DNA from: Mycobacterium adipatum
Lineage (GTDB): Bacteria; Actinomycetota; Actinomycetes; Mycobacteriales; Mycobacteriaceae
Direction of reading: 5' to 3'
DNA length: 64,000 bases
Assembly (NCBI RefSeq): GCF_001644575.1
Contig: NZ_CP015596.1
Coordinates: forward strand, 4,898,001-4,962,000
Under the pieces are notes generated by a model. That model did no database searches, had not been told where the DNA came from, and was given only the letters and a program-made list of their open reading frames with translations. Below, in pieces: positions 25,794 to 40,813 of this stretch. Each line of letters begins with the position of its first letter. The first letter of the stretch is position 1. The position numbers and the translations under genes are program-made.

Positions 25794-26948
25794 TCAGCGC
25801 CGAACGTCGGCCTCCAACTCCGCCAGCACCGCCTCGGTATCGGCGCCCAACGCCGGTGCCGGTCCGCGGACATGGCCCGGGGTACGGGAGAACCAGGTCG
25901 GCACACCGGGAAACCGGACCGGGCCGTCCGGGGTCTGGACCGTCTCGAACAGCCCGGCGGCGTTGAGCTGCGGCGAATCGAACAGCGCGTCGAGGGTGTT
26001 GATCGGTGTTGCCGGTATCTCCAACTCCGCGAACAGATCCAGCCACTGCGCGGTGGTGCGCTCCCGCATGGTCTGCGCGACCAGCCCGTACACCGTGTCG
26101 ATCTGCTTGGCGCGCAGTTCCAGCGTGGCGTAGGCGTCGGAATTCCAGGCCGGCCGCACCGCATCGATGAAGGCGCGCCAGTGCTTGTCGTTGTAGATCA
26201 GCGCGGCGACGAACCCGTCCTTGGTCTCGTACGGGCGCCGGTTCGGTGCCACGGTGCGCGGGTAGATCGCCGGCCCGACGGGCGGGTCGAAGATGGCGCC
26301 GTTGGCGTGCTCGACGAGCATGAAGGAAGCCATCGTCTCGAACATGCTGACCTCCACCTCCTGACCCTCACCGGTGCGCTCGCGGTGGAACAGCGCCATC
26401 ATGGTGGCGTACAACGCGGTCAGGCCGGTGACCTTGTCGGCCATGATGGTCGCGACGTAGGTGGCATCGCCGGTCAGCTGCTTCTGCACCGCGGGCAGCC
26501 CGCACTCCGCCTGGATGGTGTCGTCGTATGCGGGCCGGTCGGCATCCGGGCCACGCCTGCTGTACCCATAGCAGTTGGTGTAGACGATCTTGGGGTTGAT
26601 CGCGGCGACCGATTCGTAGTCGAACCCGAGTCTCGCTATCGCCTTGGCCCGCATGGAGTGGATGAACACGTCTGCCGTCGCGACCAGTGCGCGCAGCGCC
26701 GCCGCACCCTGTTCGGAGCGCAGATCCAGTACGACACTGCGCTTCCCGCGGTTCACATTCACGAACACGCCGTTCATACCCGGCGACGGACCCACCGCCA
26801 CGTTGCGGGTGATGTCCCCTTCGGGTGGCTCGATCTTGATGACGTCGGCACCCATGTCGGCCATGATCTGGGTGCAGTACGGGCCCATCACCACCGAGGT
26901 GACGTCGATGACGCGCACCCCGTGCAGCGGCCCCCGATGGTCACTCAT
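25794..26948 (-). CDS. CaiB/BaiF-family CoA-transferase
   Basis: Class III CoA-transferase, 384 residues, moving CoA between carboxylic acids. Features: N-terminal LHGVRVIDVTSVVMGPYCTQIMADMGADVIKIE, the NRGKRSVVLDL motif, and the catalytic Asp in IMADKVTGLTALYATMMAL. Last gene of the leftward catabolic operon; its start overlaps the upstream SDR gene by 8 nt. It probably activates or exchanges CoA on an acid intermediate of the pathway. Donor and acceptor are unknown. Confidence 0.92.
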   Translation of the reverse strand: MSDHRGPLHGVRVIDVTSVVMGPYCTQIMADMGADVIKIEPPEGDITRNVAVGPSPGMNGVFVNVNRGKRSVVLDLRSEQGAAALRALVATADVFIHSMRAKAIARLGFDYESVAAINPKIVYTNCYGYSRRGPDADRPAYDDTIQAECGLPAVQKQLTGDATYVATIMADKVTGLTALYATMMALFHRERTGEGQEVEVSMFETMASFMLVEHANGAIFDPPVGPAIYPRTVAPNRRPYETKDGFVAALIYNDKHWRAFIDAVRPAWNSDAYATLELRAKQIDTVYGLVAQTMRERTTAQWLDLFAELEIPATPINTLDALFDSPQLNAAGLFETVQTPDGPVRFPGVPTWFSRTPGHVRGPAPALGADTEAVLAELEADVRR

Positions 26949-27861
26949 GCTGGGCCCCTTGGGATGCCATGGCGAACGAGTACCTGATGTGGTCGGTGTG
27001 GCCGTCGGGCACCGGCGGGAACACCAGCGGCGCCGTGTCGTCGCGAATCTGCTCGATATCGGCCGCGACGTCCTCGACCGACCACGACGGCCGGTAGACG
27101 CCGGCCGTCTCGGCGACGAAGGCACGGGCCACCCTGCCGCCTATCGCTATCAGCATCTCGCCGGTCACCGAGCAGCTCTCGTGCGACAGCCAGGCCACCA
27201 TCGGCGCCACCAATTCCGGCCCCATCGGCGGGTAGGACGAGGTGTCGATACCCTCCGCCATCCGGGTGACCGCGCTGGGTACGACGACGTTGCAGGTGAC
27301 GTTGTGTGCGGCACCCTCCAGCGCGGCCACATTGGACAGCCCGACCAGACCCGCCTTCGCGACGGCGTAGTTGGCCACGCCGTGGTTTCCGTAGAGTCCT
27401 CCAATGGAGGAGGTCAGCACGATGCGGCCGAAGCCGTTGTCGCACATGATCGGAAAGGCCGGGCGCAGCACATGGAACCCACCGCGCAGGTGCACATCGA
27501 GGACGGCGTCGAAGTCCTGGTAGCTCAGCTCCCGCAGCGGCGCGCGGCGCACCGTGCCGGCGTTGTGGATCAGGATGTCGACGCGACCGTAGTTCCGCAC
27601 GGCCGCGTCGATGATGGCCCGGCCCCCGTCGGCGGTGGCCACCGAGTCCGTGCTCGCGATGGCATGCCCACCGGCAGCGACGATCTCACGAACCACGTCG
27701 TCGGCGGGCCCCCCGTCTGCTCCCTCACCGGTCAGAGTGCCACCGACGTCGTTCACGACGACCTTCGCACCGCGCGAGGCCAGCAGGAGTGCGTACTCGC
27801 GGCCCAGCCCACGGCCGCCGCCGGTGATGACGGCGACGCGGTCGTCGAAGCGCAGGGTCAC
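26941..27861 (-). CDS. SDR-family dehydrogenase (multifunctional-enzyme type 2-like)
   Basis: A 306-residue short-chain dehydrogenase. NAD-binding GGGRGLGREYA, the NNAG equivalent IHNAGTVRR, catalytic Ser in VLTSSIGGLYGN and YAVAK (Tyr-x-x-x-Lys). The early VVVNDVGG segment and length resemble the (3R)-hydroxyacyl-CoA dehydrogenase part of peroxisomal-type multifunctional enzymes, suggesting a beta-oxidation step on a CoA ester. The GTG start overlaps the BVMO stop (GTGA). Confidence 0.88.
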   Translation of the reverse strand: MTLRFDDRVAVITGGGRGLGREYALLLASRGAKVVVNDVGGTLTGEGADGGPADDVVREIVAAGGHAIASTDSVATADGGRAIIDAAVRNYGRVDILIHNAGTVRRAPLRELSYQDFDAVLDVHLRGGFHVLRPAFPIMCDNGFGRIVLTSSIGGLYGNHGVANYAVAKAGLVGLSNVAALEGAAHNVTCNVVVPSAVTRMAEGIDTSSYPPMGPELVAPMVAWLSHESCSVTGEMLIAIGGRVARAFVAETAGVYRPSWSVEDVAADIEQIRDDTAPLVFPPVPDGHTDHIRYSFAMASQGAQHE

Positions 27862-29696
27862 CTGATCTCCAGCCCCGCCAGATCGCCCGCGGCACGCCAG
27901 TCGGCGATCAGGTCATCGAAGGCGTAGAAACCGGGCGCATAGAAGTCGCCGAGGAAGCCCCCGTTGCGTACCGCGCTACCGCGCCCCTCGTTGTTGTAAT
28001 AGCCGGGCGTGCAGGATAGTTCGAAGGCCGAGTTGTCGATCGAGAGTTCCCGCACGGTCGCCACCCAGCTCTCCTGGCCCTGCTGGCTCGGTTCCACCGT
28101 GGTGGCACCGCGGCGCTGGGCCTCGGAGATGATGTAGGCGATGTGGCGGGCCTGCTGCTCGAACATCGCGGTGGTGTTGGCCGACACCCCGCCCTGGATG
28201 AAGCCCATGAAGAACTGGTTGGGGAATCCGCGGCTGGTCATCCCGTGCAGCGTCTTGTAGTCGTCGCGCCAGTGGTCGAACAGCGAGAGTCCGTCGCGGC
28301 CGGTGATCCGCTCGATCGCGAACCGCCGGTGGATCTCGGTGGAGATCTCGAAGCCGCTGGCGAAGATCACGCAATCGACCTCGTATTCCACGCCGTCAGC
28401 GACGATGCCCTTCTCGGTCAGCCGCTGCACACCCTTGGAAGCCGAGACGTCCACCAAGGTGACGTTGGGCCGGTTGAAGGTGTCCAGATAGTGTTCACTG
28501 GAGGTCGGCCGCTTACACATGAAACGGTAGTACGGCTTGAGCGCCTCGGCGGTGCCCGGGTCGGTGACGATCTCGGCGACGCGGCGACGCAGCCGCTCCA
28601 TGATCTTGTAGTCCTCTTCCTCCCGGAACGCCATGATCTGCTCGATACTCACCGAGGCGGGATCGTCGCTGGCCGCGATCCGGGCCGTCAGGTTCCGCCC
28701 GAGCTCAGTCCAGAAGTCACACACCAGATCCGGTTCGCCGAACACCACTCCGACGAACGGTGACCAGTTGTGGAAGTTGCGCTTGCGTTCCTCCTGCCAG
28801 CCCGGCTGCAGCGCTGCAGCCCACTCCGCGTCGGTGGGCGGGTTGGACCGCTCGTCGACCGAGGAGGGGGTCCGCTGGAACACGAAGAGTTCTTTGGCGT
28901 CGCGGCCGAGGTGCGGCACCAGCTGGATGCCGGTCGCACCGGTGCCGACCAGCGCCACCCGCTTGTCGGCGAGCTTGTGCAGCCCGCCGTCGGCGTCACC
29001 TCCGGTGTAGTCGTAATCCCAACGTGCCGAATGAAAGACGTGTCCGGAGAAGTCCTTGATACCGGGGATCCCCGGCAGCTTCGGCCGGTTATAGGAGCCC
29101 TGCGCCATCACCACGAACCGGGCCCGGATCTCGTCGCCGCGGTCGGTGCTGATCTGCCACCGCTGCGTGGCATCCTCCCAGCACAGTTCCCGCACCTGGG
29201 TGGAGAACAGCGCACCGTCGTACAGTCCGAAGTGCTTCCCGATATTGCGGCAGTGCTGCAGGATCTCGGCGCCGTCGGCGAACTTCTTGCTCGGCATGAA
29301 GTCGAGCTCTTCGAGCAGCGGGATGTAACAGTACGCGTCGTTGTCGCATTGGATTCCGGGGAACCGGTTCCAGTACCACACCCCGCCGAAGTCACCGGCC
29401 ATCTCGATGACCCGGATCCCCTCGACCCCGGCCTTCTTCAGGTAGGCCCCGGCCAGCAGACCCGCGAAACCGCCACCGAGGATGACGACGTCGACGTCCT
29501 CGACGACCGGGTCCCGTTCGACGACCGTCGTGTACGGGTCCACCTCGTAGAATTCGGCGAGATCGTCCTCGAGCTCCAGGTATTGGTCGGCGCCGTCGGG
29601 TCGCAGCCGTTTCGCCCGTTCGGCGGCGTACTTCTCGCGCAGCGCCGGAATGTCGATATCGGCCGGGGGGTCCGTCGGTCCGCACGGGGTCGTCAT
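27858..29696 (-). CDS. Baeyer-Villiger flavin monooxygenase
   Basis: A 612-residue type I BVMO that inserts oxygen next to a ketone (ketone to ester or lactone) using FAD and NADPH. FAD-binding GGGFAG lies at 74-79; the BVMO fingerprint FSGHVFHSARWDY at 216-228; and the NADPH motif GTGATG at 251-256. An N-terminal extension of about 60 residues before the FAD domain (PALREKYAAERAKRLRPDG) is typical of the cyclopentadecanone- and steroid-type BVMO group. Start ATG 29696 overlaps the stop of the LLM gene. Substrate unknown. Confidence 0.93.
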   Translation of the reverse strand: MTTPCGPTDPPADIDIPALREKYAAERAKRLRPDGADQYLELEDDLAEFYEVDPYTTVVERDPVVEDVDVVILGGGFAGLLAGAYLKKAGVEGIRVIEMAGDFGGVWYWNRFPGIQCDNDAYCYIPLLEELDFMPSKKFADGAEILQHCRNIGKHFGLYDGALFSTQVRELCWEDATQRWQISTDRGDEIRARFVVMAQGSYNRPKLPGIPGIKDFSGHVFHSARWDYDYTGGDADGGLHKLADKRVALVGTGATGIQLVPHLGRDAKELFVFQRTPSSVDERSNPPTDAEWAAALQPGWQEERKRNFHNWSPFVGVVFGEPDLVCDFWTELGRNLTARIAASDDPASVSIEQIMAFREEEDYKIMERLRRRVAEIVTDPGTAEALKPYYRFMCKRPTSSEHYLDTFNRPNVTLVDVSASKGVQRLTEKGIVADGVEYEVDCVIFASGFEISTEIHRRFAIERITGRDGLSLFDHWRDDYKTLHGMTSRGFPNQFFMGFIQGGVSANTTAMFEQQARHIAYIISEAQRRGATTVEPSQQGQESWVATVRELSIDNSAFELSCTPGYYNNEGRGSAVRNGGFLGDFYAPGFYAFDDLIADWRAAGDLAGLEIR

Positions 29697-30874
29697 GCGA
29701 GAGCGTTCTCCGGCAGCGCGGCGGGATGCAACGGGGCGGCCATCTCGTGCACCGCGGGCAGTACCTCCTGGGCGAACAGTCGGGTGCTTTCCATGGCGTC
29801 CTCATACGGCATGGTGCCGAACTGCGGGACGATCGTCACCTCGGAGAACGAGCACGCCTGTTGTGCGGCCTTCAGCTTCTCGAACACCACTTCCGGGGTC
29901 CCGATCAGCAGATTGGAGGCGTGGTATCCGGGCGGGCCGCCCTTCTTCTGGTCGCCCACCTGCGAGGCCAGCACCGCGGTCGCGGTGGCTTCGCGCGCGG
30001 CGTAGGCCTCATACCCCTTGACGCCGTTGAAGTTGGACGCGTCGGCAAATCCGTAGTGGACGTTGACATCCCGGTTCGCCGTCCAGATCCACTCCTCGGT
30101 CAGCGCGGCCAGCTTGTCGTCATCCTTGGCCGTGCAGTACATGAACATCACGTTCTTGGGCTGACACGGCTCGAAGCCCTCCTCGGCGCGGAAGGTGTTG
30201 ACCTTGCGGACCTCCTCGCCGGCATCCCAGATCGGCTTGTTGCCGACGAACAGCGGCACCATGCCGCGCCGCGACAGGATCTCCAGCGATTCCGCGGTCG
30301 AGGACGAACTGTAGATCCGCGAGAACAGGTCCTTGCTGATCGGTTCGGGTCGCAACGACATCTCCGGGAAGCTGAAGATCTCTCCGTCATAGGAGAACCG
30401 CTCCCCACCGAACGCCAACTCCAGGATGTCGAGGGTTTCGTTGAAGCGCTGCCTGCTCTGCTCGCGTGGCACGCCGACGGCGTCGAACTCGCTCTTGGAC
30501 ACTCCCCGCCCGATGCCGATGGTGTCGTACCGGCCATTGGAGACGATGTCCAGATAGGCGATCTGGTGCGCCAGGCGCACCGGGTTCCACCACGGCGCGA
30601 CCGCCACGAAGGTGCCCAGACTGACTCGCTCGGTCCGCCCGGCGAAATACGTCAGGGCCTGGATCGGGTTGGGCGTCATACCATATGGGGTGCCCTGGTG
30701 CTCGGGGAACCAGATCCCGTCGTAGCCCAGCGGCTCGGCCAGGTCGCCGAGCGCCAACGCGGCCTGCACGCACACGTGGTCCGGTGTGGTGGGCGCGGCG
30801 CGGAAATCACCCGCCATCACCCGTTCCCAGTCGCGCGAGTTCTGCGCACCCGTACCCAGATTGACCTTCATCAT
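29693..30874 (-). CDS. LLM-class flavin-dependent monooxygenase
   Basis: A 393-residue bacterial-luciferase-like TIM-barrel enzyme using reduced FMN (or F420). Motifs: LAEPLGYDGIWFPEHQGTPYGM, RVSLGTFVAVAPWWNPVRLAHQIAYLDIVSNGRYDTIGIGRG and the late CSFSEVTIVPQFG. The family includes type II BVMOs and alkane or terpenoid monooxygenases. It is coupled to the type I BVMO by an ATGA overlap. Two consecutive ATGs (30874 and 30871) could start. The Rieske oxygenase gene lies upstream, behind a hairpin. Confidence 0.88.
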   Translation of the reverse strand: MMKVNLGTGAQNSRDWERVMAGDFRAAPTTPDHVCVQAALALGDLAEPLGYDGIWFPEHQGTPYGMTPNPIQALTYFAGRTERVSLGTFVAVAPWWNPVRLAHQIAYLDIVSNGRYDTIGIGRGVSKSEFDAVGVPREQSRQRFNETLDILELAFGGERFSYDGEIFSFPEMSLRPEPISKDLFSRIYSSSSTAESLEILSRRGMVPLFVGNKPIWDAGEEVRKVNTFRAEEGFEPCQPKNVMFMYCTAKDDDKLAALTEEWIWTANRDVNVHYGFADASNFNGVKGYEAYAAREATATAVLASQVGDQKKGGPPGYHASNLLIGTPEVVFEKLKAAQQACSFSEVTIVPQFGTMPYEDAMESTRLFAQEVLPAVHEMAAPLHPAALPENALA

Positions 30875-30890
30875 CGTCTCCTTTGCCTGT

Positions 30891-30939
30891 GATTTGTGGA
30901 GTCTTAGCCGGACTCATTACGGCTAAGACTCCACAAATC
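30891..30939 (-). terminator. 20-bp perfect hairpin between Rieske oxygenase and LLM genes
   Basis: Arms 30891-30910 (GATTTGTGGAGTCTTAGCCG) and 30920-30939 are perfectly complementary around a 9-nt loop. The hairpin begins 1 bp after the Rieske stop codon and ends 16 bp before the LLM gene. In the leftward operon it can act as a terminator or attenuator, or protect the upstream mRNA segment. No T-tract. Confidence 0.75.
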
Positions 30940-30940
30940 G

Positions 30941-32365
30941 CTAGATGTCGTGGGGTTCTCCGCTGCCCATGTACTTGGACAGCTGGTAATGCAGGTTCAC
31001 GGTGCTGCGTTCCCGATACGGATTGGGCAGCGTGCCGGGGAAGCCGGCCGACTTCATGCCCTGCTGCACGGCGGCCATATTGGAAAAGTCCTGTGGCAGA
31101 ACCGAAAGCCAGTTCGGTGAATCCTTCGGCGTATAGACCCACTCCGTCTGGGGTTCACCCCCTTCGGGGTACAGCTCGAAGACGGCGACCTCGAAGATGC
31201 ACTTGTTGGGGTCATAGCTCGGATCGGGACGCGCGGCATAACACAGCGCACTGGTCAGCCCCTGTCCCACTTGGAAGTTCGGGAAGATCTGCCAGGCCGT
31301 TCCGCTCTGGCCCAGGATATCGGGCGGGATGGTCGGCCATATCACGCCGCGGGCCTCGTCATCGCGGCGCGCCGAGGCCAGCCAGTGCGCCAGCACCTGA
31401 TCGGCCGGAGTGCCCTCGGGCAACTCATCGACCAGCCGCTTGGCGGCCTCCACCAGCGTCCTCGTCGTCGTCGCGTTGGTCTCTTCCATGGTGTAGACCT
31501 GCATCTCGGCGGTGGAGATGCGCGGGTCACCGGTACCGAGCCGGATCTTGGACTTGGTCTCGTCCATGCCCTTGGGGGCGTCATAACCGATATTGCTGTG
31601 CTTGCCCTGGGCCTTGGCCCAACCCTTGAACTCGCCGAACTTGTTGAACTCCGGGTGGGTGGTGAACACGTGGTAGGTCTCGTTGAAGGCCTCCATCGCG
31701 ACTTTCCAGTTGCAGTCGAAGTACAGCCATTTGCGCCACTTGTAGCGCATGTTCTCCAGGCCGAACGGATCCAGGATCTTCGCGGCCGGCATCAGGTAGT
31801 CGGCCAGCGACTCGGCCTCGGGGTCCATGTTGATGAACAACCAGCCACCCCAGGTGTCCACCTGCACCGGCGCCAGGTGCGTGTTCGCCGGGGTGAGCTT
31901 GCCCTGCCAGTCGTCCTGCTCGCGGATGTGCGTACAGGTGCCGTCCAGACCATAGGTCCAGCCGTGGAACCCGCAGACGAAGGACTTGCGCGCCCGGCCC
32001 ACGGCGTTCTTGGCGCCCTCCGGGTTGTCGATCAGCTTGCGCCCGCGGTGCATGCACACGTTGTGGTGGGCCGTGAACGAATCGGCCGAGTTCCCTGTGC
32101 CGGTGCGCACCACGATGATCGAGTCGTCGAGGATGTCGTAGGTCAGATAGCCGCCCACCTCGGGGATCTCATCGACCCGGCCCACCTGCTGCCACACCTT
32201 GCGCCACAGTCTGTCTCGTTCATTGCGCGCGTACTCCGGACAGATGTACGCATCGACAGGGATGGTCATCGCCGACGACAGATCCTCGGCGACCCGCCCC
32301 GTGGCGTCGTCGGGTTCGGCATCCACCTCGATGGTGGCGTCGAGATCGGATTCGGTGTGCGTCAC
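30941..32365 (-). CDS. Rieske non-haem iron ring-hydroxylating oxygenase, alpha subunit
   Basis: A 474-residue oxygenase. The Rieske [2Fe-2S] ligands are CMHRG (Cys104, His106) and CGFHGW (Cys131, His134). The catalytic mononuclear iron site is in NETYHVFTTHPE (His232, His237), preceded by KVAMEAF. It hydroxylates aromatic or alicyclic substrates and needs electrons from a ferredoxin and reductase; none is encoded in this island. No beta subunit gene is present, so it is probably an alpha-only enzyme. It is 12 bp downstream of the SDR gene that starts the operon. Confidence 0.93.
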   Translation of the reverse strand: MTHTESDLDATIEVDAEPDDATGRVAEDLSSAMTIPVDAYICPEYARNERDRLWRKVWQQVGRVDEIPEVGGYLTYDILDDSIIVVRTGTGNSADSFTAHHNVCMHRGRKLIDNPEGAKNAVGRARKSFVCGFHGWTYGLDGTCTHIREQDDWQGKLTPANTHLAPVQVDTWGGWLFINMDPEAESLADYLMPAAKILDPFGLENMRYKWRKWLYFDCNWKVAMEAFNETYHVFTTHPEFNKFGEFKGWAKAQGKHSNIGYDAPKGMDETKSKIRLGTGDPRISTAEMQVYTMEETNATTTRTLVEAAKRLVDELPEGTPADQVLAHWLASARRDDEARGVIWPTIPPDILGQSGTAWQIFPNFQVGQGLTSALCYAARPDPSYDPNKCIFEVAVFELYPEGGEPQTEWVYTPKDSPNWLSVLPQDFSNMAAVQQGMKSAGFPGTLPNPYRERSTVNLHYQLSKYMGSGEPHDI

Positions 32366-32377
32366 CTGTTTGTCCTT

Positions 32378-33223
32378 TCAGATCCGACGGATCGCGCTGC
32401 GGAAGTTGTCGTCCTTGAGGAACAGCGAGGTGTTGTCCGCCCCGAGGTGCGTCCAGCGCAGGTTGAGCCCGCCGTCGACGAGCAGCGTCTGCCCGGTGAC
32501 ATAGCCTGCGAGATCGGACAGCAGAAACATGATCGCGCCGGCCTGCTCGAGCGGGGTTCCCCGGCGCCCCATGGCGATTGCGGCGCGGTCCCGTTCGGGG
32601 TCCTCCTCGACGTAGGTGGCCGACGCCGCGGTCTCGGTGACCCCGGGTGCGACGGCATTGACGCGGATACCGTACGGGGCCAGTTCGACGCCCAGGGTCC
32701 TGGTCGCGGCGACGACAGCGGCCTTGGCCGTGCCGTAGGCGATGTGGAACGGTGCGCTGTTCATCCCGCTGATCGAGGACACCGACACGATCGAGCCGGG
32801 GCCACCGGCGGCACGGATCTCGGCAGCGACCGCCTGGCTCATGAAGAACATCGTCTCCAGGTTTGCGGTGAACAGGTCCCGCCAGTCCGATCGTGTGACA
32901 CGGGTGGCCGGCATCCAGGTCTCCGGCGCGGCGCCGCCCGCGATGTTCACCAGACCGTAGAGCGACCCGTCCGCGGAGCGGGCGGCCTCCAGCACCGTCG
33001 CGATGCCCTCGTCGGTCGCGGCGTCGGCGGTCACCGGTATCACCGGCAGCCCACTGTCGGCCAGTGGCGCGACATGGGTGTCCAGGTTGGCCCGCGAGCG
33101 GCTCACCGCGATGACCGTGGCGCCGGCCTCGGCCGCCAGCCGCGTGACCGTGGTCCCGATTCCGCCTCCGCCGGCACCGGAGACGACGACGATTCGCCCG
33201 TCGAGCCTCAGGTGGTCAGCCAT
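32378..33223 (-). CDS. SDR-family oxidoreductase
   Basis: A 281-residue classical SDR. Cofactor loop VVVSGAGGGGIGTTVTRLA, NIAGGAAPE (NNAG variant), catalytic Ser in VSVSSISGMN, YGTAK (Tyr and Lys) and the C-terminal GQTLLVDGGLNLRW. First gene of the leftward catabolic operon, right at the divergent promoter. It likely oxidises the alcohol or dihydrodiol made by the neighbouring Rieske oxygenase to the ketone used by the BVMO (inference). Start ATG 33223. Confidence 0.9.
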   Translation of the reverse strand: MADHLRLDGRIVVVSGAGGGGIGTTVTRLAAEAGATVIAVSRSRANLDTHVAPLADSGLPVIPVTADAATDEGIATVLEAARSADGSLYGLVNIAGGAAPETWMPATRVTRSDWRDLFTANLETMFFMSQAVAAEIRAAGGPGSIVSVSSISGMNSAPFHIAYGTAKAAVVAATRTLGVELAPYGIRVNAVAPGVTETAASATYVEEDPERDRAAIAMGRRGTPLEQAGAIMFLLSDLAGYVTGQTLLVDGGLNLRWTHLGADNTSLFLKDDNFRSAIRRI

Positions 33224-33260
33224 GTCCCGCTGCTCTCGACCCGCCGAAGTCGGCGATCAT

Positions 33261-33368
33261 TTGTCCGTACAACATATGCCGCTCTACTCATTGGAGAACA
33301 CTATTCCGCAGCGGTTATGTGGCCGTCAAGAGCGATCCGCGACCGTGTTCGGACTATTGTCTGGACTA
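33261..33368. promoter_or_regulatory. Two GT-N4-AC operator candidates in the divergent promoter
   Basis: TTGTCCGTACAA (33261-33272) and TTGTCTGGACTA (33357-33368) share TTGTC-N-G-N-AC-N-A. They sit 37 bp and 25 bp from the two divergent start codons (33223 and 33394). HutC-type GntR regulators, one of which is encoded second in the rightward operon, bind GT-N4-AC-type palindromes. The 170-bp gap shows no other clear structure. Confidence 0.5.
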
Positions 33369-33393
33369 GGTGTGAGTTGATAGCGTCCAGCAC

Positions 33394-34986
33394 ATGAGCA
33401 TCGCGCAGACCGGGCGGTATCCAGTCGGGTCGCCACCGGACACCGCCGCCGGCTGGTTGCTGACCCGTCTCACGGCGCCCAGCAGGCTGTTCGGCGCCAA
33501 CGGTCTGCGCACCGGTCCCGACGGACGCCTGTACATCGCGCAGGTGACCGGGAGTCAGGTCAGCGCACTGGATGTGGGCACCGGCGAGATCGAGACCATC
33601 TGCGCCAAGGGCGGCGACATCGTCGCCCCCGATGATCTGGCCTTCGGCGCCGACGGTGGCCTGTACGCGACCGAGGTGATGGACGGCCGGGTCAGTGCAC
33701 GCGACGCGTCCGGGACCGCCCGCGTGCTACGCGACGATCTGCCGTCGGCCAACGGCATCACCTTCCATCAGGGCCGATTGTTCGTCAACGAGTGCCGCGA
33801 TGGCGGCCGATTGCTGGAGATGGACCTCACCGGCGGCGAACCACGGCTCATCCTGGCCGACCTGCCCTCCCCCAACGCCATGGAGGTCGGGCCCGACGGG
33901 CTGCTGTACTTCCCGGTGATGACCGCCAATCAGATCTGGCGGGTACATCCCGACGGTGGCGAGACCGAGGTCGTGGCCGGTGATCTCGGGGTACCGGACT
34001 CGGTCAAATTCGATGCCGACGGCACCATCGTGTCCACCCAGGTCGCCAGCGGTCAGGTGTTGCGCATCGATCCGCGCACCGGAGCCAAGACCGTGCTGTG
34101 CACCTTGACCCCCGGGTTGGACAACTGCGCGTTCGTCGACGGTCGGCTGTTCGTCTCCCACTTCACCGGCGCCATCACCGAGATCCTCGGGAACGGCGAT
34201 ACGCGCGCACTGCTGCCCGGCGGACTGAACTGGCCGCTCGACATCGTCGTCGGCGCAGACGGCCTGCTGTATGTCGCCGACGGAACCTATCTCTACCGCG
34301 TGCGTGCCGGTGGCGCACCGCAGACCGTCGGCATGCTGTTCAGCCCCGGTTACCCGGGGTTCGTGCGCGGGCTGACCGTGGCCGGGCCCGGCGAGTTCGT
34401 GGTCACCACGTCGGGCGGGCAGGTCGCCCGCTACCGCCCCGCCGACAACGAAACCACCTATCTGGCAGACGGTCTGGACCAGCTCTACGGAGTCACCCTG
34501 TTGCCCGACGGCACCCCGGTCGTCGTCGAACAGGGCACCGGACGGGTACTTGCCGTCAGTGGCTCCGGCACGCAGGTACTGGCCGCGGATCTGGATACCC
34601 CGGTCGGGGTGACCACCGATGCCGACGGGACCGTCCTGGTGTCGGTGGCCGGGGCGGTGCTGCGCGTGACGGCGTCGGGAACCGAGACCGTCGTCGACGG
34701 TCTCGTCACTCCGCACGGCATCCTGGTGGGCGCCGGCACGCTGTACATCCTCGACGCCGGCACCAAGTCCGTCATCGCCGTCGACCTCACCACCGGAGCA
34801 CGCCGCACCCTGGCCGCCGGACTACCGGTCGGGGCACCACCGGGCGTCACGCCGAAACCGCTACGCGGGATGCCTCCGTTCTCCGGCCCGCAGGGCCCAT
34901 TCGCCGGCCTCACGGCGGGACCCGATGGCACACTTTACTTTTCGGCCGACGGCGAGGGCAGCGTGTTCGCGCTGCGACCGGCGTGA
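33394..34986 (+). CDS. SMP-30/gluconolactonase-like beta-propeller protein
   Basis: A 530-residue protein with many repeats of the blade motif PDGxLY (for example NGLRTGPDGRLYIAQV, DLAFGADGGLYATEV, NAMEVGPDGLLYFPV, DIVVGADGLLYVADG). It probably forms two propeller-like sections (about 20-290 and 300-530). No signal peptide is visible. The SMP-30 superfamily includes lactonases, so a role in opening the lactone made by the BVMO is attractive; no catalytic metal site was assigned with confidence. First gene of the rightward operon; its stop overlaps the GntR start. Confidence 0.75.
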   Translation: MSIAQTGRYPVGSPPDTAAGWLLTRLTAPSRLFGANGLRTGPDGRLYIAQVTGSQVSALDVGTGEIETICAKGGDIVAPDDLAFGADGGLYATEVMDGRVSARDASGTARVLRDDLPSANGITFHQGRLFVNECRDGGRLLEMDLTGGEPRLILADLPSPNAMEVGPDGLLYFPVMTANQIWRVHPDGGETEVVAGDLGVPDSVKFDADGTIVSTQVASGQVLRIDPRTGAKTVLCTLTPGLDNCAFVDGRLFVSHFTGAITEILGNGDTRALLPGGLNWPLDIVVGADGLLYVADGTYLYRVRAGGAPQTVGMLFSPGYPGFVRGLTVAGPGEFVVTTSGGQVARYRPADNETTYLADGLDQLYGVTLLPDGTPVVVEQGTGRVLAVSGSGTQVLAADLDTPVGVTTDADGTVLVSVAGAVLRVTASGTETVVDGLVTPHGILVGAGTLYILDAGTKSVIAVDLTTGARRTLAAGLPVGAPPGVTPKPLRGMPPFSGPQGPFAGLTAGPDGTLYFSADGEGSVFALRPA

Positions 34987-35735
34987 CACCGCGCACGGCC
35001 GAAGCGGCCGAGCACCGCTACCTGCAGGTGGCCCGGACACTGCGCAAGGAGATCGTGGACGGGGTCTACCCCGTCGGATCGCAACTGCCCACCGAGCACG
35101 AACTGTGCGACCGCTTCGCGGTCAGCCGGTACACCGTGCGCGAAGCGCTACGCCGGCTCCGTGACGACAACCTGGTGTCCTCGCGGCCGCGGACCGGCAC
35201 CCTGGTGGTACCGCGCCCGTCGACGAGTTCCTATGCCCAGGACGTGATGTCGATCGACGACCTGTTGGCGTTCGCGGCGGGGACGCACTTCGAGATCGAG
35301 TCCAATGCGATGGTGACCATCGACACCGAACTGGCCGGGCGCACGGGACTGCGGCCGGGCGAGCAGTGGCTTGCGGTGCGCGGCTACCGTCGGGACGCCG
35401 TGGCGAACACCCCGATCTGTCGCACCGAGTACTACGTGAACCGGGCCTTCGCGGCGGTCGGCCGGATGCTGCAGCGCAATTCGGGTCCGATCTTCCCGCT
35501 CATCGAGGATCTCTATGGAGTCAGCATCACCGAGGTGCATCAGGAGATCACCGCGGTCGCGCTGCCTGCCGATCTCGCCGTGCTGCTCGACGCGGACGCC
35601 GGGGCCCCCGCACTGCAGATGCAGCGCAGCTACCGGACCTCCGACGGAGAGGTTGCCCAGGTCACCGTCAACACCCACCCGGCGTCCCGGTATCGGCATT
35701 CGATGACCATGCGCCGCGTCAAGGACCAACCGTGA
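34983..35735 (+). CDS. GntR-family regulator (HutC subfamily, UTRA domain)
   Basis: A 250-residue regulator with the GntR winged helix RYLQVARTLRKEIVDGVYPVGSQLPTEHELCDRFAVSRYTVREALRRL (about 12-60). A C-terminal UTRA ligand-binding domain (about 85-245) contains WLAVRGYRRD, TEYYVNRAFAAVG and VHQEITAVALP. The GTG start overlaps the stop of the propeller gene. It probably senses a pathway substrate or CoA intermediate and controls both divergent operons. Confidence 0.92.
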   Translation: MTPRTAEAAEHRYLQVARTLRKEIVDGVYPVGSQLPTEHELCDRFAVSRYTVREALRRLRDDNLVSSRPRTGTLVVPRPSTSSYAQDVMSIDDLLAFAAGTHFEIESNAMVTIDTELAGRTGLRPGEQWLAVRGYRRDAVANTPICRTEYYVNRAFAAVGRMLQRNSGPIFPLIEDLYGVSITEVHQEITAVALPADLAVLLDADAGAPALQMQRSYRTSDGEVAQVTVNTHPASRYRHSMTMRRVKDQP

Positions 35736-37231
35736 GCACACTCGCCGCCGCGCTTGGCACTGCGGCACAAGAGCGTCCGGACCGGGTGCTCATCGTCGAC
35801 GGAGACGTCGAACTGAGCACCGCCACGTTGTACCGGCAGGCGGGGGCCCTGGCCACCTCGATGTCACGGCGGATGCGCGTGGGCAGCGTGGTGTCCTTCA
35901 TGTTGCCCAACTGGCACGAGGCCGCCATCGTCTATCTGGCCGCGGCGATCTCCGGCATGGTGGTCAATCCGATCCTGCCGTCGCTGCGCGACAGCGAACT
36001 GCGGTTCATCCTGTCCGACGCGGACGTGCGGATGATCGTCATCCCCGGGCAGTTTCGCGGATTCGACTACGCCGCGATGCTGTCGCGGGTGACCGCCGAG
36101 ATGCCCGCGCCGCCCGAGGTCGTCGTGGTACGCGGGGAACATCCGGGGCAGACACCGCTGCCCGAACTGCTCGAAGCGCCGGCCGCCGCCGCGTCGGAGT
36201 CGGACCCCGCCGCGGCGCGCATGATCATGTACACCTCGGGTACCACCGGCCGGCCCAAGGGGGTTCTGCACAGCGATGAGTCGATCGAAGGCCTGATCCG
36301 CCAGATCGGTCGATACTGGCGCATCGATGCGGGTGACACGTTCCTGGTGCCTTCACCGATCGCTCATGTCGGCGGGTCCATCTACGCCTTCGAATGCCCC
36401 TTGCTGCTCGGCTCGAGCGCCGTGCTGATGGACACGTGGGACCCTGATGCCGCGGTCGCACTCATGCAGCAGCATCGGGTCACCCACATGGCCGGTGCCA
36501 CACCGTTTCTGGACGGTTTGCTCGGCGCCGCCGAACGCGCCGGCAGCCGGTTGCCGGATCTGAAGGTGTTCATCTGCGGTGGCGCGTCGGTGCCTCCGGC
36601 GCTGATCCGCAGGGCAGCAGACTATTTCGACAACGCGGTCGTGACCCGTGTGTACGGGTCCACCGAGGTTCCGGTAACCACCGTGGGTTCCCTGGAATGC
36701 GCGGATCGTGCGGCCGACACCGACGGACACGCAGGCATCGCCGAGATCACGATCGTCGACGGCGAGATCCGGGTGCGGGGCCCGCAGATGTGCAAGGGGT
36801 ACCTACACCGGGAGGATGGCGCGTCGGCGCTCGACGAGAACGGGTACTTCCGTACCGGAGATCTCGGCCATCTCACCGCCGACGGTCACCTGGTGGTGAC
36901 CGGGCGCGCGAAGGACATCATCATCCGCAACGGCGAGAACATCTCCCCCAAGGAAGTCGAGGACATCCTGATCGGCCATCCGGAGATCGCCGAGATCGCC
37001 GTCGTGGGGATCCCCGATGCGCGCACCGGCGAGCGGGCGTGCGCGGTGATCGTTCCGCACGCCCGCAGCATCCCCGGGCTCGCCGATCTGCGCGATCTGC
37101 TGACCGCGCACGGCGTCGCCAGGTTCAAGACCCCCGAGCAGGTGGTCGTCTGGGATGCGTTGCCCAAGAACGATGCCGGAAAGGTGCTCAAGCACCAGAT
37201 CCGGGCCACGCTGAGCAAGGGGGGCAACTGA
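35732..37231 (+). CDS. Acyl-CoA ligase (AMP-forming), first of two
   Basis: A 499-residue ANL-superfamily ligase activating a carboxylic acid as its CoA thioester. P-loop IMYTSGTTGRPKGVLHS (about residues 168-184), A5 motif VYGSTEVPVTT, A7 YFRTGDLG, A8 hinge GRAKDIIIRNGENISPKEVE and the A10 lysine in PKNDAGKVLKHQ. The GTG start overlaps the GntR stop. Substrate unknown; most like FadD-type ligases for cyclic or aromatic acids. Confidence 0.93.
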   Translation: MSTLAAALGTAAQERPDRVLIVDGDVELSTATLYRQAGALATSMSRRMRVGSVVSFMLPNWHEAAIVYLAAAISGMVVNPILPSLRDSELRFILSDADVRMIVIPGQFRGFDYAAMLSRVTAEMPAPPEVVVVRGEHPGQTPLPELLEAPAAAASESDPAAARMIMYTSGTTGRPKGVLHSDESIEGLIRQIGRYWRIDAGDTFLVPSPIAHVGGSIYAFECPLLLGSSAVLMDTWDPDAAVALMQQHRVTHMAGATPFLDGLLGAAERAGSRLPDLKVFICGGASVPPALIRRAADYFDNAVVTRVYGSTEVPVTTVGSLECADRAADTDGHAGIAEITIVDGEIRVRGPQMCKGYLHREDGASALDENGYFRTGDLGHLTADGHLVVTGRAKDIIIRNGENISPKEVEDILIGHPEIAEIAVVGIPDARTGERACAVIVPHARSIPGLADLRDLLTAHGVARFKTPEQVVVWDALPKNDAGKVLKHQIRATLSKGGN

Positions 37232-37232
37232 C

Positions 37233-38006
37233 ATGCAGGTGGCGATCGTGACCGGCGCGAGCAGCGGCATCGGTTTCGGCTGTGCCGTCAAACTCGCCGA
37301 GGCCGGCATGGCGGTGCTCGGCGCCGGCCGCGATACCGACCGACTGACCGACCTGGCGCAGGCCATCGGTGACCCGGATCGGGTGGCGACGCTGGCCGTC
37401 GACCTGACCGCCGACGACGCCCCGGCCCGGATCGTCGACGCGGCGGTATCCCGTTGGGGCCATGTCGATTTCCTGGTCAACAATGCCGGTGTGGGCAGTC
37501 CCAAGCCGTTGCACGAGACCGATGACGAGTCGCTGGACTATTTCCTGGGGCTGATGCTGCGCGCACCGTTCCGGCTGGCCCGCGATGTGCTGCCGCATAT
37601 GGGTCCCGGCTCGGCCATCATCAACGTCACCTCGACGTTCGCGGTGGTGGGTGGGATGCGGGGCGGCGCCTATTCGGCGGCCAAGGGCGGCCTCACCGCA
37701 TTGACGGGCCACATCGCCTGTCAGTATGGCGCCGAGGGTATCCGCTGCAATGCGGTGGCCCCCGGGGTGACGCTGACCCCGATGGTCGCCACCCGGCTCG
37801 AAGACGAACGTTTCCGCAAGATCAACACCGAGATGACCCCGCACACCCGCCTCGGCACCGTCGACGATATCGCCAGCACGGTGGCGTTCCTGTGCTCTCC
37901 CGGAGGTGCTTTCATCAACGGGCAGACCATCGTCGTCGACGGCGGCTGGAGTTCGACGAAATATCTGTCGGATTTCGCACTGACCTCGCAGTGGGTCGCC
38001 AGGTGA
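37233..38006 (+). CDS. SDR-family oxidoreductase
   Basis: A 257-residue classical SDR: VTGASSGIGFG cofactor loop, NNAGVGSP, catalytic Ser in NVTSTFAVVGG, YSAAK (Tyr, Lys) and NGQTIVVDGGWSS. It sits 1 bp after the first ligase gene, and its stop overlaps the second ligase start (GTGA). Likely a hydroxyacyl-CoA or alcohol dehydrogenase in the pathway. Confidence 0.9.
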   Translation: MQVAIVTGASSGIGFGCAVKLAEAGMAVLGAGRDTDRLTDLAQAIGDPDRVATLAVDLTADDAPARIVDAAVSRWGHVDFLVNNAGVGSPKPLHETDDESLDYFLGLMLRAPFRLARDVLPHMGPGSAIINVTSTFAVVGGMRGGAYSAAKGGLTALTGHIACQYGAEGIRCNAVAPGVTLTPMVATRLEDERFRKINTEMTPHTRLGTVDDIASTVAFLCSPGGAFINGQTIVVDGGWSSTKYLSDFALTSQWVAR

Positions 38007-39484
38007 ATCTGTTCGCGGTACTCGACCAGGCCGCAACGCGTTTCGGCGATCGCGGCGCGGTGTACCTCGGCAACGAGCAATGCCACACGTTCGCCGGGCT
38101 CCGCGATCGGGCGTTGCGGCTGGCGTCATCCATATCGGCGAACAGGGATACCGGGGCACGGATCGCGATCGCCAGCGAAAACCGCCCCGAGATCATCGAG
38201 TTGATGTTCGCGGTCTGGGCCGCCGGCTGCGCGGTCGTCCCGATCAACTTCAAGCTGCATCCCCTGGAGATGGCGCAGATCCTCGAGGATTGCCGCGCCG
38301 CCGTCGTCTTCGCATCCCCGAAGATCGCCGGCGGTCTCGCCGCGGTCACCGATGTGGCGGTCGAAAACATCGAATCCCCCGCGTATGCCGCTCGCCTGCA
38401 CACGCAGCCGGCCGTGCCGGCCATCGTGGACCCCGGCGCGCTGGCCTGGCTGTTCTACACCAGCGGCACCACCGGTAAGTCCAAGGGCGCGATGCTCTCG
38501 CACCGCAACCTGATGGCGATGACGGTGGCGCACCTGGCGGACTTCGACTCTCCGGACGAAAATTCCAGTCTCGTGCACGGGGCTCCGATGTCGCACGGCT
38601 CGGGTCTCTACATCGCGCCCTACATCCTGCGGGGCGCGCGGCAGGTCATCCCCGCTTCGTCGGGTTTCGACCCCGAGGAGTTTCTCGACCTGTGCGGCCA
38701 CCACCCCCGCACCAGCTGCTTCCTCGCGCCGACCATGGTGGCGCGGCTGCTCGCCACGGGCCGGCCGCGCCCGCAGAACCTCACGACCATCGTCTACGGC
38801 GGTGGCCCGATGTACCTGGACACGCTCAAGAAGGCGATGGCCACGTTCGGGCCGACCCTGGTCCAGCTCTACGGGCAGGGTGAGGCACCGATGACCATCA
38901 CCGGGTTGCGCAAGTGCGACCACCTCTCCGGCGATGGGCTGGCCGACGATGCGATCCTCGGCTCAGTGGGTTATCCGCGCAGCGGCGTCGAGGTCGCGGT
39001 GCTCGACGCCGACGGGAATCCCGCAGCGGTCGGTGAGATCGGTGAGATCGCCTGCCGCGGTGACGTCGTCATGTCGGGCTACTGGAACAACGCGGCAGCG
39101 ACGTCGAGCACCCTGGTCGGCGGATGGTTGCACACCGGGGACATGGGATCCTTCGATGCACGCGGATACCTGACCCTGCGCGACCGCTCCAAGGACGTGG
39201 TGATCAGCGGCGGCAGCAACATCTACCCGCGCGAGGTCGAGGAGGTGCTCCTGGAACACGCCGGCGTCGAAGAGGCGTGTGTCGTCGGCGCACCGGACGA
39301 GGACTGGGGCGAGATGGTGGTGGCGTTCATCGTCGGGACGGCCGCCGAGGCGGACCTCGACGCTCACCTGCTGGAGCGGATCGCCCGGTTCAAGCGGCCC
39401 AAACGCTACATCTACGTCGACGAACTGCCCAAAAATAGCTACGGCAAGGTCCTCAAACGGGAGTTGCGCGAGTCGGTCCGCTGA
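38003..39484 (+). CDS. Acyl-CoA ligase (AMP-forming), second of two
   Basis: A 493-residue ANL ligase distinct from the one 770 bp upstream. P-loop LFYTSGTTGKSKGAMLSH, A5 YGQGEAPMTI, A7 HTGDMGSFD, A8 RDRSKDVVISGGSNIYPREVE and A10 lysine in PKNSYGKVLKRE. Two different ligases in one operon suggest that two acids, for example the two halves of a cleaved ester or an entry acid and a ring-opened intermediate, are activated. The GTG start overlaps the SDR stop. Confidence 0.93.
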   Translation: MNLFAVLDQAATRFGDRGAVYLGNEQCHTFAGLRDRALRLASSISANRDTGARIAIASENRPEIIELMFAVWAAGCAVVPINFKLHPLEMAQILEDCRAAVVFASPKIAGGLAAVTDVAVENIESPAYAARLHTQPAVPAIVDPGALAWLFYTSGTTGKSKGAMLSHRNLMAMTVAHLADFDSPDENSSLVHGAPMSHGSGLYIAPYILRGARQVIPASSGFDPEEFLDLCGHHPRTSCFLAPTMVARLLATGRPRPQNLTTIVYGGGPMYLDTLKKAMATFGPTLVQLYGQGEAPMTITGLRKCDHLSGDGLADDAILGSVGYPRSGVEVAVLDADGNPAAVGEIGEIACRGDVVMSGYWNNAAATSSTLVGGWLHTGDMGSFDARGYLTLRDRSKDVVISGGSNIYPREVEEVLLEHAGVEEACVVGAPDEDWGEMVVAFIVGTAAEADLDAHLLERIARFKRPKRYIYVDELPKNSYGKVLKRELRESVR

Positions 39485-39503
39485 GCCCTGGTAGACACGA
39501 CCC

Positions 39504-40301
39504 ATGCAGATCGAAGGCAAGGTTGCCGTCATCACCGGGGCGGGATCGGGTATCGGCCGGGCACTGGCGCTGGCGTTGGCCGCCGCCGGGGCGTCGGTGG
39601 TCGCCGGGGACATCGATGCCGCCGCCGCCGCGCAGACCGCTGCGACCATCGGTGAACGCGCGCTCGGGGTGGGTGCCGATGCCGCGTCGGCCGCCGGTAT
39701 CGCCGCCCTGCTCGACGCCGCACGGGAGGCGTTCGGCCGCGTCGACATCTATGTCGCCAACGCCGGCATCATCGGCGTGCCGGGTCTGGGCGGTGACAGC
39801 GACTGGGATCGTGTGCTGGAGGTGAATCTGCGCGCGCACATCCGGGCCGCCGACGCACTGCTGCCGGACTGGATCGACCGCGGCAGTGGCTATTTCGTCA
39901 GCGTCGCCTCGGCAGCCGGGCTGCTCACCCAGGTGGGCGCCGCCGGGTACGCGGTCAGCAAGCACGCCGCCGTGGGCTTTGCCGAGTGGTTGTCGATCAC
40001 CTACGGGGACAAGGGGATCGGCGTGACATGCGTATGCCCGATGGGGGTTGCCACACCGCTACTGGAGGCGATCACCGGCGCCGAGGACGCCACCGCCCGG
40101 GTCGCGGCCGCGTCCATCACCACCGCCGGTGAGGTACTGAGCGCCGAGGATGTGGCGGCGGCGACGCTGGCCGGGGTTCGCGAGGACCGCTTCCTGGTGC
40201 TGCCGCACGCATCGGTTCTCGACATGTACCGGGGCAAGGGCACCGATTACGACCGCTGGATCTCCGGGATGCGGCGATACCAGCGCGCGTTGAACGGCTG
40301 A
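39504..40301 (+). CDS. SDR-family oxidoreductase
   Basis: A 265-residue SDR: VITGAGSGIGRALALAL, NAGIIGVPG, catalytic Ser in SVASAAGLLTQ, YAVSK, then KGIGVTCVCPMGVATPL. The ending lacks the usual DGG motif, but FLVLPHASVLDMY and YDRWISGMRRYQ are typical of a mycobacterial SDR subgroup. It lies 19 bp after the second ligase gene; last gene of the rightward operon. Confidence 0.88.
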   Translation: MQIEGKVAVITGAGSGIGRALALALAAAGASVVAGDIDAAAAAQTAATIGERALGVGADAASAAGIAALLDAAREAFGRVDIYVANAGIIGVPGLGGDSDWDRVLEVNLRAHIRAADALLPDWIDRGSGYFVSVASAAGLLTQVGAAGYAVSKHAAVGFAEWLSITYGDKGIGVTCVCPMGVATPLLEAITGAEDATARVAAASITTAGEVLSAEDVAAATLAGVREDRFLVLPHASVLDMYRGKGTDYDRWISGMRRYQRALNG

Positions 40302-40327
40302 GAACGCTCGGGGCGGGGCGGACGCCG

Positions 40328-40813
40328 CTAGCCGACGGCGATATCGGCGGCGCTGATGCCGGACAGGTCGGGCACGTTCTGCATGAGCTCGATGCGGGTG
40401 CCGTCGGGGTCGGTCAGGTAGATGAACCGGCCGGCCGCCGGGTCGGCGGTATCGCCCAGCACGGTGCGCGTCGACTCCACGAGGGTTCCGCCCGCGGCGA
40501 GGATCGCGGCGGTCAAGCCGTCGACGTCCTCGACCCGGAAGGACAGGTGCGTGAAGCCCAGTTCGGTCATCGGTTTGCGCTGTCCCGACCCGGTGATCGG
40601 CACGTCGACCCACTGCAACAATTCGATGCGGATGTCATCGCGGATGAGCATCGCCGAGCGGAATCGGCCTTCCTGCTCCATGGTCGCGGCGACTTCGTTG
40701 TTGTCGAAGTCGAGCCGATAGAGCACTACGAACCCGAACACATCGGTGTAGAAGCGGATCGAGCGGTCGAGGTCGGTGACGCAGATACCGATATGCGAGA
40801 AACCCTGGATCAT
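40328..40813 (-). CDS. VOC-family (glyoxalase/extradiol dioxygenase fold) protein
   Basis: A 161-residue vicinal-oxygen-chelate protein with two beta-alpha-beta-beta-beta modules. Candidate metal ligands are His7 (FSHIGICVTDLDRS), Glu in RIELLQW, His in FTHLSFRVEDVD and Glu in RIELMQNV, the full set expected for an active metalloenzyme. It faces the catabolic operon and may be part of the pathway (lyase, epimerase or dioxygenase), or independent. Start ATG 40813. Confidence 0.87.
   Translation of the reverse strand: MIQGFSHIGICVTDLDRSIRFYTDVFGFVVLYRLDFDNNEVAATMEQEGRFRSAMLIRDDIRIELLQWVDVPITGSGQRKPMTELGFTHLSFRVEDVDGLTAAILAAGGTLVESTRTVLGDTADPAAGRFIYLTDPDGTRIELMQNVPDLSGISAADIAVG

Follow-up and report, generated by a model that had tools for sequence, protein, structure and literature searches.

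A widely conserved two-armed gene cluster in mycobacteria in which the gene for a luciferase-like monooxygenase and that for a thiamine pyrophosphate enzyme with a linked aldehyde dehydrogenase exclude each other

Gene content and organization

Our study examined a stretch of 64,000 nucleotides from Mycobacterium adipatum (contig NZ_CP015596.1, positions 4,898,001 to 4,962,000; hereafter the window), and within it a gene cluster in which six genes on the minus strand (25794-33223) diverge from six genes on the plus strand (33394-40301), with a VOC gene (40328-40813) facing the latter. The minus arm encodes CaiB, a first short-chain dehydrogenase (SDR1), a Baeyer-Villiger monooxygenase (BVMO), a luciferase-like monooxygenase (LLM), a Rieske oxygenase (RHO) and SDR2; the plus arm encodes a propeller protein (PROP), a GntR regulator, a coenzyme A (CoA) ligase (ACS1), SDR3, a second ligase (ACS2) and SDR4. 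The same two six-gene arms and facing VOC gene had been described in an initial annotation made from the sequence alone, and the Pfam families match its naming. Its account of the gene junctions as mostly overlapping was about right, as the ten same-strand junctions comprise five overlaps of 4 bp, one of 8 bp and four gaps of 1-66 bp. The genes are as follows.

25794-26948, minus strand: CaiB, CaiB/BaiF family III CoA-transferase (Pfam PF02515, 382 bits, scored on the longest open reading frame (ORF), 25794-27125; a start at 26948 (ATG) is more likely than one at 27125)
26941-27861, minus strand: SDR1, core short-chain dehydrogenase, PRK07791-like (Pfam; NCBIfam 227 bits, under the model cut-off)
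27858-29696, minus strand: BVMO, type I Baeyer-Villiger monooxygenase, nearest PtlE and PDB 5mq6 (matches to NF045818 and PDB 5mq6)
29693-30874, minus strand: LLM, luciferase-alpha-like flavin monooxygenase (PF00296; nearest solved structures 8cbb, 7bip and 1brl)
30941-32365, minus strand: RHO, Rieske oxygenase alpha subunit, CntA/GbcA-like (PF00355 and PF00848)
32378-33223, minus strand: SDR2, core short-chain dehydrogenase (Pfam)
33394-34986, plus strand: PROP, tandem two-propeller protein, predicted lactonase
34983-35735, plus strand: GntR/UTRA (HutC-type) regulator (PF00392 and PF07702)
35732-37231, plus strand: ACS1, acyl-CoA or alicyclic acid-CoA ligase (PF00501; the top NCBIfam model is cyclohexanecarboxylate-CoA ligase, below cut-off)
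37233-38006, plus strand: SDR3 (Pfam)
38003-39484, plus strand: ACS2, second CoA ligase (Pfam)
39504-40301, plus strand: SDR4, lineage-specific neighbour (Pfam)
40328-40813, minus strand: VOC protein, lineage-specific neighbour (Pfam)

Distribution and conservation in the genus

The genus, taken in its wide sense, was represented by an even draw of 148 Mycobacterium genomes, upon which the trees and counts rest. RHO matched 115 of these at E <= 1e-40 and had an orthologue (>=73 % identity) in 113; two of the 115 yielded distant matches only, one genome (G144) was counted as positive on a truncated match, and 13 RHO-negative genomes were assigned by elimination. The best 80 of 424 RHO-matched loci belonged nearly all to Mycobacterium, Mycolicibacterium or Mycobacteriaceae, and one (L200) came from a metagenome-assembled genome of Acidobacteria.

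Gene content was compared over 105 genus loci, each a 20 kb stretch around RHO, of which 97 came from 96 of the 113 RHO-positive genomes (G116 contributed two) and the others were L247-L254. Genes were called by script and labelled using chosen BLAST identity thresholds, and presence refers to the 20 kb stretch; loci L134-L136, which carry RHO paralogues (~51 %), were excluded from the counts. SDR1, BVMO and RHO were found in all 105 loci, SDR2 in 104, CaiB in 97, PROP, GntR, ACS1 and SDR3 in 96 each, ACS2 in 72, LLM in 35, SDR4 in five and VOC in two. A single order, CaiB-SDR-BVMO-(LLM)-RHO-SDR diverging from propeller-GntR-ligase-SDR, was seen in 96 loci, where the variable members are LLM, ACS2, SDR4 and VOC. 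Eight loci are reduced to SDR1-BVMO-RHO-SDR2, and one, on a plasmid of M. branderi (L119), has only CaiB-SDR1-BVMO-RHO at that place.

This distribution does not agree with the description of the region as an island in the initial annotation, and a recent horizontal island was rejected on account of the presence of RHO in most of the genus sample. An htpG homologue lies to the left of the cluster in M. adipatum, with lhr to the right; htpG was called inside the 20 kb stretch of only four of the 105 loci, and the cluster therefore stands at different sites, its place in the window being one of many. ACS2 (39484) marks the end of the conserved unit. SDR4 and VOC, which had been counted as members, are rare neighbours and were rejected as pathway genes. 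The cluster differs little from the window in base composition; around 30-32 kb its G+C content dips slightly, to 63 %.

Two further arrangements were observed. In L109, L111, L115-L118, L138 and L249 the core adjoins genes for a desA-type fatty acid desaturase and dus (families named on L117). The linear, 864 kb M. branderi plasmid pJCM12687 (L119, L259) carries a further RHO-BVMO-SDR1-CaiB-TPP-ALDH copy (TPP and ALDH being the enzyme genes introduced below), with the propeller, GntR, ACS1 and SDR3 genes ~70-80 kb from the RHO copy and two P450 genes between.

Mutual exclusion of LLM and a TPP enzyme with aldehyde dehydrogenase

The LLM gene was present in 37 of the 148 genomes (80-100 % identity) and a gene for a thiamine pyrophosphate (TPP) enzyme in 74 (70-78 % identity), all of them RHO-positive. 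No genome carried both, and exactly one of the two was found in 111 of the 113 RHO-positive genomes; the two with neither, G058 (540 contigs) and G111 (420 contigs), are fragmented assemblies. Among the 97 loci with genome data, 31 had LLM without TPP and 66 TPP without LLM, with no exceptions. In the M. adipatum genome an orthologue of the TPP enzyme was not found, the best match being 28 %.

From this exclusion it was expected that an aldehyde dehydrogenase (ALDH) gene would follow the TPP gene, and this was checked in the genomes. ALDH was present in all 74 TPP-positive genomes, in 7 of 37 LLM-positive genomes and in 11 of 35 RHO-negative genomes, and it lay within 4 kb of TPP in 67 of 75 copies; the other eight are near RHO (seven reduced genomes and G144). 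These counts rest on the L250 protein as query. A search with the L236 protein gave one match (62 %, in a RHO-negative genome), because the L236 ALDH is an outlier; the lowest identities to the genus ALDHs, 42-44 %, are probably those of L236.

An operon tree was inferred with FastTree from eight other cluster proteins of 96 loci, and the LLM state changes on it at least six times, five of these being forced by supported branches. Taken together, the exclusion counts and the changes on the operon tree indicate that one gene, LLM, and a gene pair, TPP and ALDH, have replaced each other repeatedly.

The relatives of the two enzymes offer an indication of what they might share. LLM falls within the luciferase-like superfamily by PF00296 and by a fold match to luciferase, and its nearest solved relatives in both sequence and fold are bacterial luciferase alpha and RslO1, at ~20-24 % identity, from which it differs in lying inside a catabolic-type operon. 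Bacterial luciferase alpha is an alkanal monooxygenase that converts aldehyde to acid, and RslO1 is a Baeyer-Villiger-type enzyme of rishirilide synthesis. An F420 enzyme was considered and rejected, as sequence and fold favour the FMN luciferases and the score against the F420-dependent model TIGR03619 (114.7 bits) fell below its cut-off of 166.9. The TPP enzyme matches acetolactate synthase, oxalyl-CoA decarboxylase/2-hydroxyacyl-CoA lyase, benzaldehyde lyase and, lower, cyclohexane-1,2-dione hydrolase; the last of these and the 2-hydroxyacyl-CoA lyases are TPP enzymes that cut a C-C bond by a carbonyl. The common ground of the two sets of relatives would be C-C cleavage or oxidation beside a carbonyl. 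That all but two of the RHO-positive species (both with fragmented genomes) have exactly one of LLM or TPP with ALDH suggests that two unrelated chemistries would share one job. LLM had been offered in the initial annotation as a possible Baeyer-Villiger step of the route; as a regular second step of that kind it was rejected, given its presence in 35 of the 105 loci and its exclusion with the TPP enzyme and ALDH partner.

The Baeyer-Villiger monooxygenase and its two types

Type I BVMOs are recognized by the fingerprint FxGxxxHxxxW(P/D) and two Rossmann motifs, and the cluster enzyme has F216, G218, H222, W226 and D227 together with GGGFAG and GTGATG (13-row alignment A3). It resembles PtlE/PenE (pentalenolactone D/neopentalenolactone D synthase) over its full length, and its score against that equivalog model, NF045818 (693.5 bits, cut-off 1100), makes it a relative and not a member; it differs from them in that its neighbours look catabolic. 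The match to PDB 5mq6, which we take to be a polycyclic-ketone monooxygenase of a type that accepts polycyclic ketones, reached 392 bits. As PtlE/PenE and 5mq6 are the nearest characterized BVMOs, our best guess at the substrate is a bulky alicyclic or terpenoid ketone.

The BVMO identities track those of the neighbouring genes least of all (Spearman 0.14-0.35 with nine genes other than LLM, 0.64 with LLM), PROP being the next lowest (0.15-0.46). The BVMOs form two deep types (58 and 47 loci) that part at 76 % identity. In an operon that is constant in other respects, at least 12 changes of BVMO type are seen on the operon tree; L039, a near relative of the window, carries the commoner type. 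A finer cut gives seven groups; of 507 pairs of loci whose RHO proteins are at least 90 % identical, 223 differ in BVMO group (mean 73 %). The cut-offs, 0.20 for groups and 0.24 for types, were chosen after viewing four.

This swapping fits substrate tuning, and it adds weight to an alternative in which LLM and TPP with ALDH are not equivalent, and instead serve two pathway branches for related substrates or side groups, each species keeping the branch for the compound that it meets. The two deep BVMO types are as expected if substrates differ, and LLM and the TPP enzyme come from unrelated families with different cofactors. However, substrate choice should leave some genomes with both, and none has both; furthermore, the association of LLM with BVMO type is weak (12 of 53 against 19 of 44, p = 0.048). 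We consider this alternative unlikely, although it is the strongest competitor to the reading in which LLM and TPP with ALDH perform the same step.

RHO and the propeller protein

RHO has the Rieske ligands C104, H106, C131 and H134, the iron-site residues H232 and H237 and the bridging glutamate E229, all invariant in 16 rows. It scored 116 bits against the model for GbcA, a glycine betaine monooxygenase, with a cut-off of 670, and the closest solved Rieske oxygenase is the carnitine monooxygenase CntA (PDB 6y9c), at only ~90 bits. RHO resembles CntA in the bridging glutamate and in being an alpha subunit without an adjoining beta subunit gene; it differs in that CntA partners CntB, whereas RHO has no adjoining reductase gene. 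The bridging glutamate of CntA is E205 (PMC7948474).

PROP passes the cut-off of the SMP-30/gluconolactonase Pfam model SGL (52 against 26.3 bits). Proteins of the SMP-30/gluconolactonase type are single six-bladed propellers with a Glu/Asn/Asp metal site, and the model of PROP reads as two propellers; a second propeller also sets it apart from the beta-propeller lactonase RPA3624 (8djf). A Foldseek search with the whole two-propeller model placed LRP-type tandem propellers first, at a template-modelling score of ~0.36, which is uninformative on function. No Pfam match to an alpha/beta-hydrolase lactonase was found in the cluster.

Predicted operators and control

The gap between SDR2 and PROP holds two palindromes, TTGTCCGTACAA and TTGTCTGGACTA, with starts 96 bp apart, and a promoter-like site.

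33261-33272, plus strand: predicted GntR operator 1, TTGTCCGTACAA, on the SDR2 side (pattern twice only in its own genome)
33300-33329, minus strand: promoter-like site of the minus arm, TTGACG - 18 - AATAGT (consensus scan only)
33357-33368, plus strand: predicted GntR operator 2, TTGTCTGGACTA, on the propeller side (pattern twice only in its own genome)

The pattern TTGTCYGKACWA occurs twice in the 6.05 Mb genome, both times in this gap, and its reversed control nowhere; the chance expectation for the pattern in the window is 0.03. Both sites were found in 77 of 85 SDR2-PROP gaps (84 loci and the window), at a spacing of 95-97 bp in 76 of the 77, and TTGTCCGGACAA stands at the operator 1 place in 60 of the 77. 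A looser pattern, TTGTCNNGACNA, was matched at least once in all 85 gaps, compared to ~1.2 of 84 random stretches of equal length. The motif was first spotted by eye in the window and counted afterwards; an unbiased 8-mer count over the gaps ranks the motif letters top (83 of 85).

The regulator belongs to the HutC/UTRA subfamily (GntR 73.6 bits, UTRA 63 bits). The spacing, about nine helical turns, suits one repressor acting on both promoters, and as the paired palindromes are genome-unique and conserved, one GntR repressor probably controls both arms. The operators, conserved as a pair in the promoter region common to both arms, predict co-regulation, a partial answer to the doubt raised in the initial annotation as to co-expression of the two arms. 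A short terminator-like hairpin was also called within this region, close to operator 1 (33242-33255).

Relatives outside the genus and second loci

A survey of the family, own genus included, gave RHO matches at E <= 1e-100 in 56 of 301 genomes and 9 of 31 genera. Outside the genus, 28 of 30 matches were fetched as loci, two at contig edges being left out. RHO, BVMO and SDR1 were present in all 28, SDR2 and PROP in 27 each and CaiB in one, and LLM, GntR/UTRA, ACS1 and SDR3 were found in none of the 28 at the chosen thresholds. The usual operon is PROP-SDR2-RHO-BVMO-SDR1, followed by the TPP enzyme (26 of 28) and aldehyde dehydrogenase (25 of 28), and a second operon often adjoins it, with a GntR/FCD regulator (15 loci) and acyl-CoA dehydrogenases and an enoyl-CoA hydratase (12-14 loci). 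A Rhodococcus plasmid carries the core and the TPP gene (79 %), with distant matches to the CoA-transferase (33 %), ligase (28 %), ALDH (42 %) and LLM (26 %). On a plasmid of Sphingobium, an alphaproteobacterium, ~14 kb hold SDR2 (68 %), BVMO (56 %), RHO (51 %), TPP (71 %) and SDR1 (65 %), with partial matches to ALDH (51 %) and PROP (57 %). PROP is also present, at 62-71 %, in two further families of the class.

In Sphingobium sp. RAC03 (L258, 10385-13628), the ALDH-like and propeller stretches are without a listed gene and give partial matches only; this may reflect annotation or decay, the PLSDB gene table being incomplete.

Acyl-CoA dehydrogenase genes that accompany the core in other species sit elsewhere in the M. 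adipatum genome: orthologues of four of them, at 45-75 %, form a group with an orthologue of the FCD regulator (70 %) ~2.6 Mb from the cluster (L267). The small acyl-CoA dehydrogenase was found in 71 of the 148 genus genomes, all RHO-positive. In the seven sampled genomes with a reduced RHO locus it lies 3-5 kb from the TPP gene at a second locus, where G100 has the propeller gene too. These genes thus remain a set, also in genomes that divide them between loci.

Proposed route and alternatives

We infer each activity, the order of the steps, the equivalence of LLM and TPP with ALDH, and the class of substrate from sequence comparisons. An unlinked reductase would supply electrons to RHO for the hydroxylation of a ring carbon, SDR2 and/or SDR1 would oxidize the alcohol to a ketone, and BVMO would insert oxygen to give a lactone, which PROP would hydrolyse; the ligases and CaiB would form CoA thioesters, and the acyl-CoA dehydrogenases, here at the second locus, would continue the route. 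In one step, a C-C bond beside a carbonyl would be broken and a carboxylate formed. At this point most relatives would use a TPP-dependent lyase or hydrolase with aldehyde dehydrogenase, and this genome and its kind a luciferase-like flavin monooxygenase, which could yield the acid in one O2-dependent step. The full route read in the initial annotation is thereby kept for hydroxylation, alcohol oxidation, Baeyer-Villiger oxygenation, an SMP-30/NHL-like propeller and CoA activation, and given up for LLM as a regular second Baeyer-Villiger step.

On balance, we think it fairly probable that the cluster in the window, one copy of a two-armed type, encodes an upper catabolic route for a bulky ketone or alcohol, alicyclic or terpenoid, with GntR as its predicted switch and LLM in place of the TPP lyase and ALDH. 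Our confidence is evenly divided on the stronger proposal, that a single O2- and flavin-dependent LLM does the work of the TPP lyase and ALDH of sister species, as a one-for-two non-homologous displacement that has recurred at least five times beside a BVMO swapped between two deep types.

Several observations weigh against this interpretation. Seven LLM-positive genomes, including that of the window, retain an ALDH homologue, which in every case lies 120 kb or more away from RHO or on a different contig. The five independent LLM-TPP contrasts are all opposite, and the sign test gives p = 0.0625, the least value possible with five; the Fisher values on gene co-occurrence ignore relatedness. 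The LLM structure model is of middling confidence (predicted local distance difference test score, 71), and acetolactate synthase, oxalyl-CoA decarboxylase/2-hydroxyacyl-CoA lyase and benzaldehyde lyase all outscore cyclohexane-1,2-dione hydrolase as matches to the TPP enzyme, with acetolactate synthases matching as well as or better than the C-C-cutting enzymes named above. No gene for a Rieske reductase or ferredoxin was found by Pfam among the 13 genes. In PROP, the SMP-30 metal ligands could not be assigned, the profile alignments shown reaching designed propellers only, and non-enzymatic NHL propellers match it as well as lactonases do. Binding of GntR to the operators is itself a prediction.

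Comparable systems include the chn/cpn-type cyclohexanol and cyclopentanol pathways, which run from alcohol to ketone, lactone and hydroxy acid and use an alpha/beta-hydrolase lactonase. The cluster resembles these in its dehydrogenase, type I BVMO and lactone-opening enzyme and, in most relatives, an aldehyde dehydrogenase. It differs in having a Rieske oxygenase, a propeller in place of the alpha/beta-hydrolase lactonase, a BVMO nearest PtlE, CoA ligases, CaiB and a TPP enzyme or LLM. Searches of open-licence PubMed Central (PMC) full texts, with geosmin, terpenoids, steroids and Sphingobium among their subjects, found no characterized operon with this gene set, which agrees with the earlier statement that no known operon has it. 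A catabolic-type cluster that most sampled mycobacteria keep, and that also occurs in other actinobacteria and on a Sphingobium plasmid, thus came without a name, substrate or paper in these searches. The exclusion between LLM and TPP with ALDH would supply two independent chemical clues to the same intermediate, making the question of the substrate testable, and the genome-unique operators offer a ready inducer screen, in which a compound that releases GntR should be, or closely resemble, the substrate.

A second alternative is that the cluster serves to degrade sterols or bile acids, at the side chain or the D ring, and not a separate terpenoid or alicyclic route. Mycobacteria and rhodococci degrade steroids, 5mq6-type BVMOs presumably take polycyclic ketones, and of the accessory acyl-CoA dehydrogenases one is short and lacks FAD-domain matches and one weakly resembles IpdE2. 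However, among the matches listed, none of the cluster genes scored as high as the cut-off of a curated steroid-specific model, and the regulator is of the GntR/UTRA type and not the TetR-type KstR. As weak evidence in the same direction, the main texts of papers on sterols in Mycobacterium, Nocardioides and M. neoaurum do not contain the terms Baeyer, GntR, gluconolactonase, ring-hydroxylating or luciferase, and have Rieske only for the 9alpha-hydroxylase KshA or in references. We therefore regard a steroid role as improbable. A biosynthetic or tailoring cluster, as suggested by a nearest named BVMO family that is biosynthetic (PtlE makes pentalenolactone), is very improbable, as a Pfam scan of 18 ORFs of the window shows no terpene cyclase, polyketide synthase or nonribosomal peptide synthetase domain, and the CoA ligases, CaiB and the relatives' linked acyl-CoA dehydrogenases and enoyl-CoA hydratase point to degradation.

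Finally, the three loci set aside from the counts (L134, L135 and L136) each hold a second, paralogous RHO, with a GntR gene (53-61 %) and an LLM-like gene (~30 %) nearby in two of the three, and perhaps represent a sister pathway.

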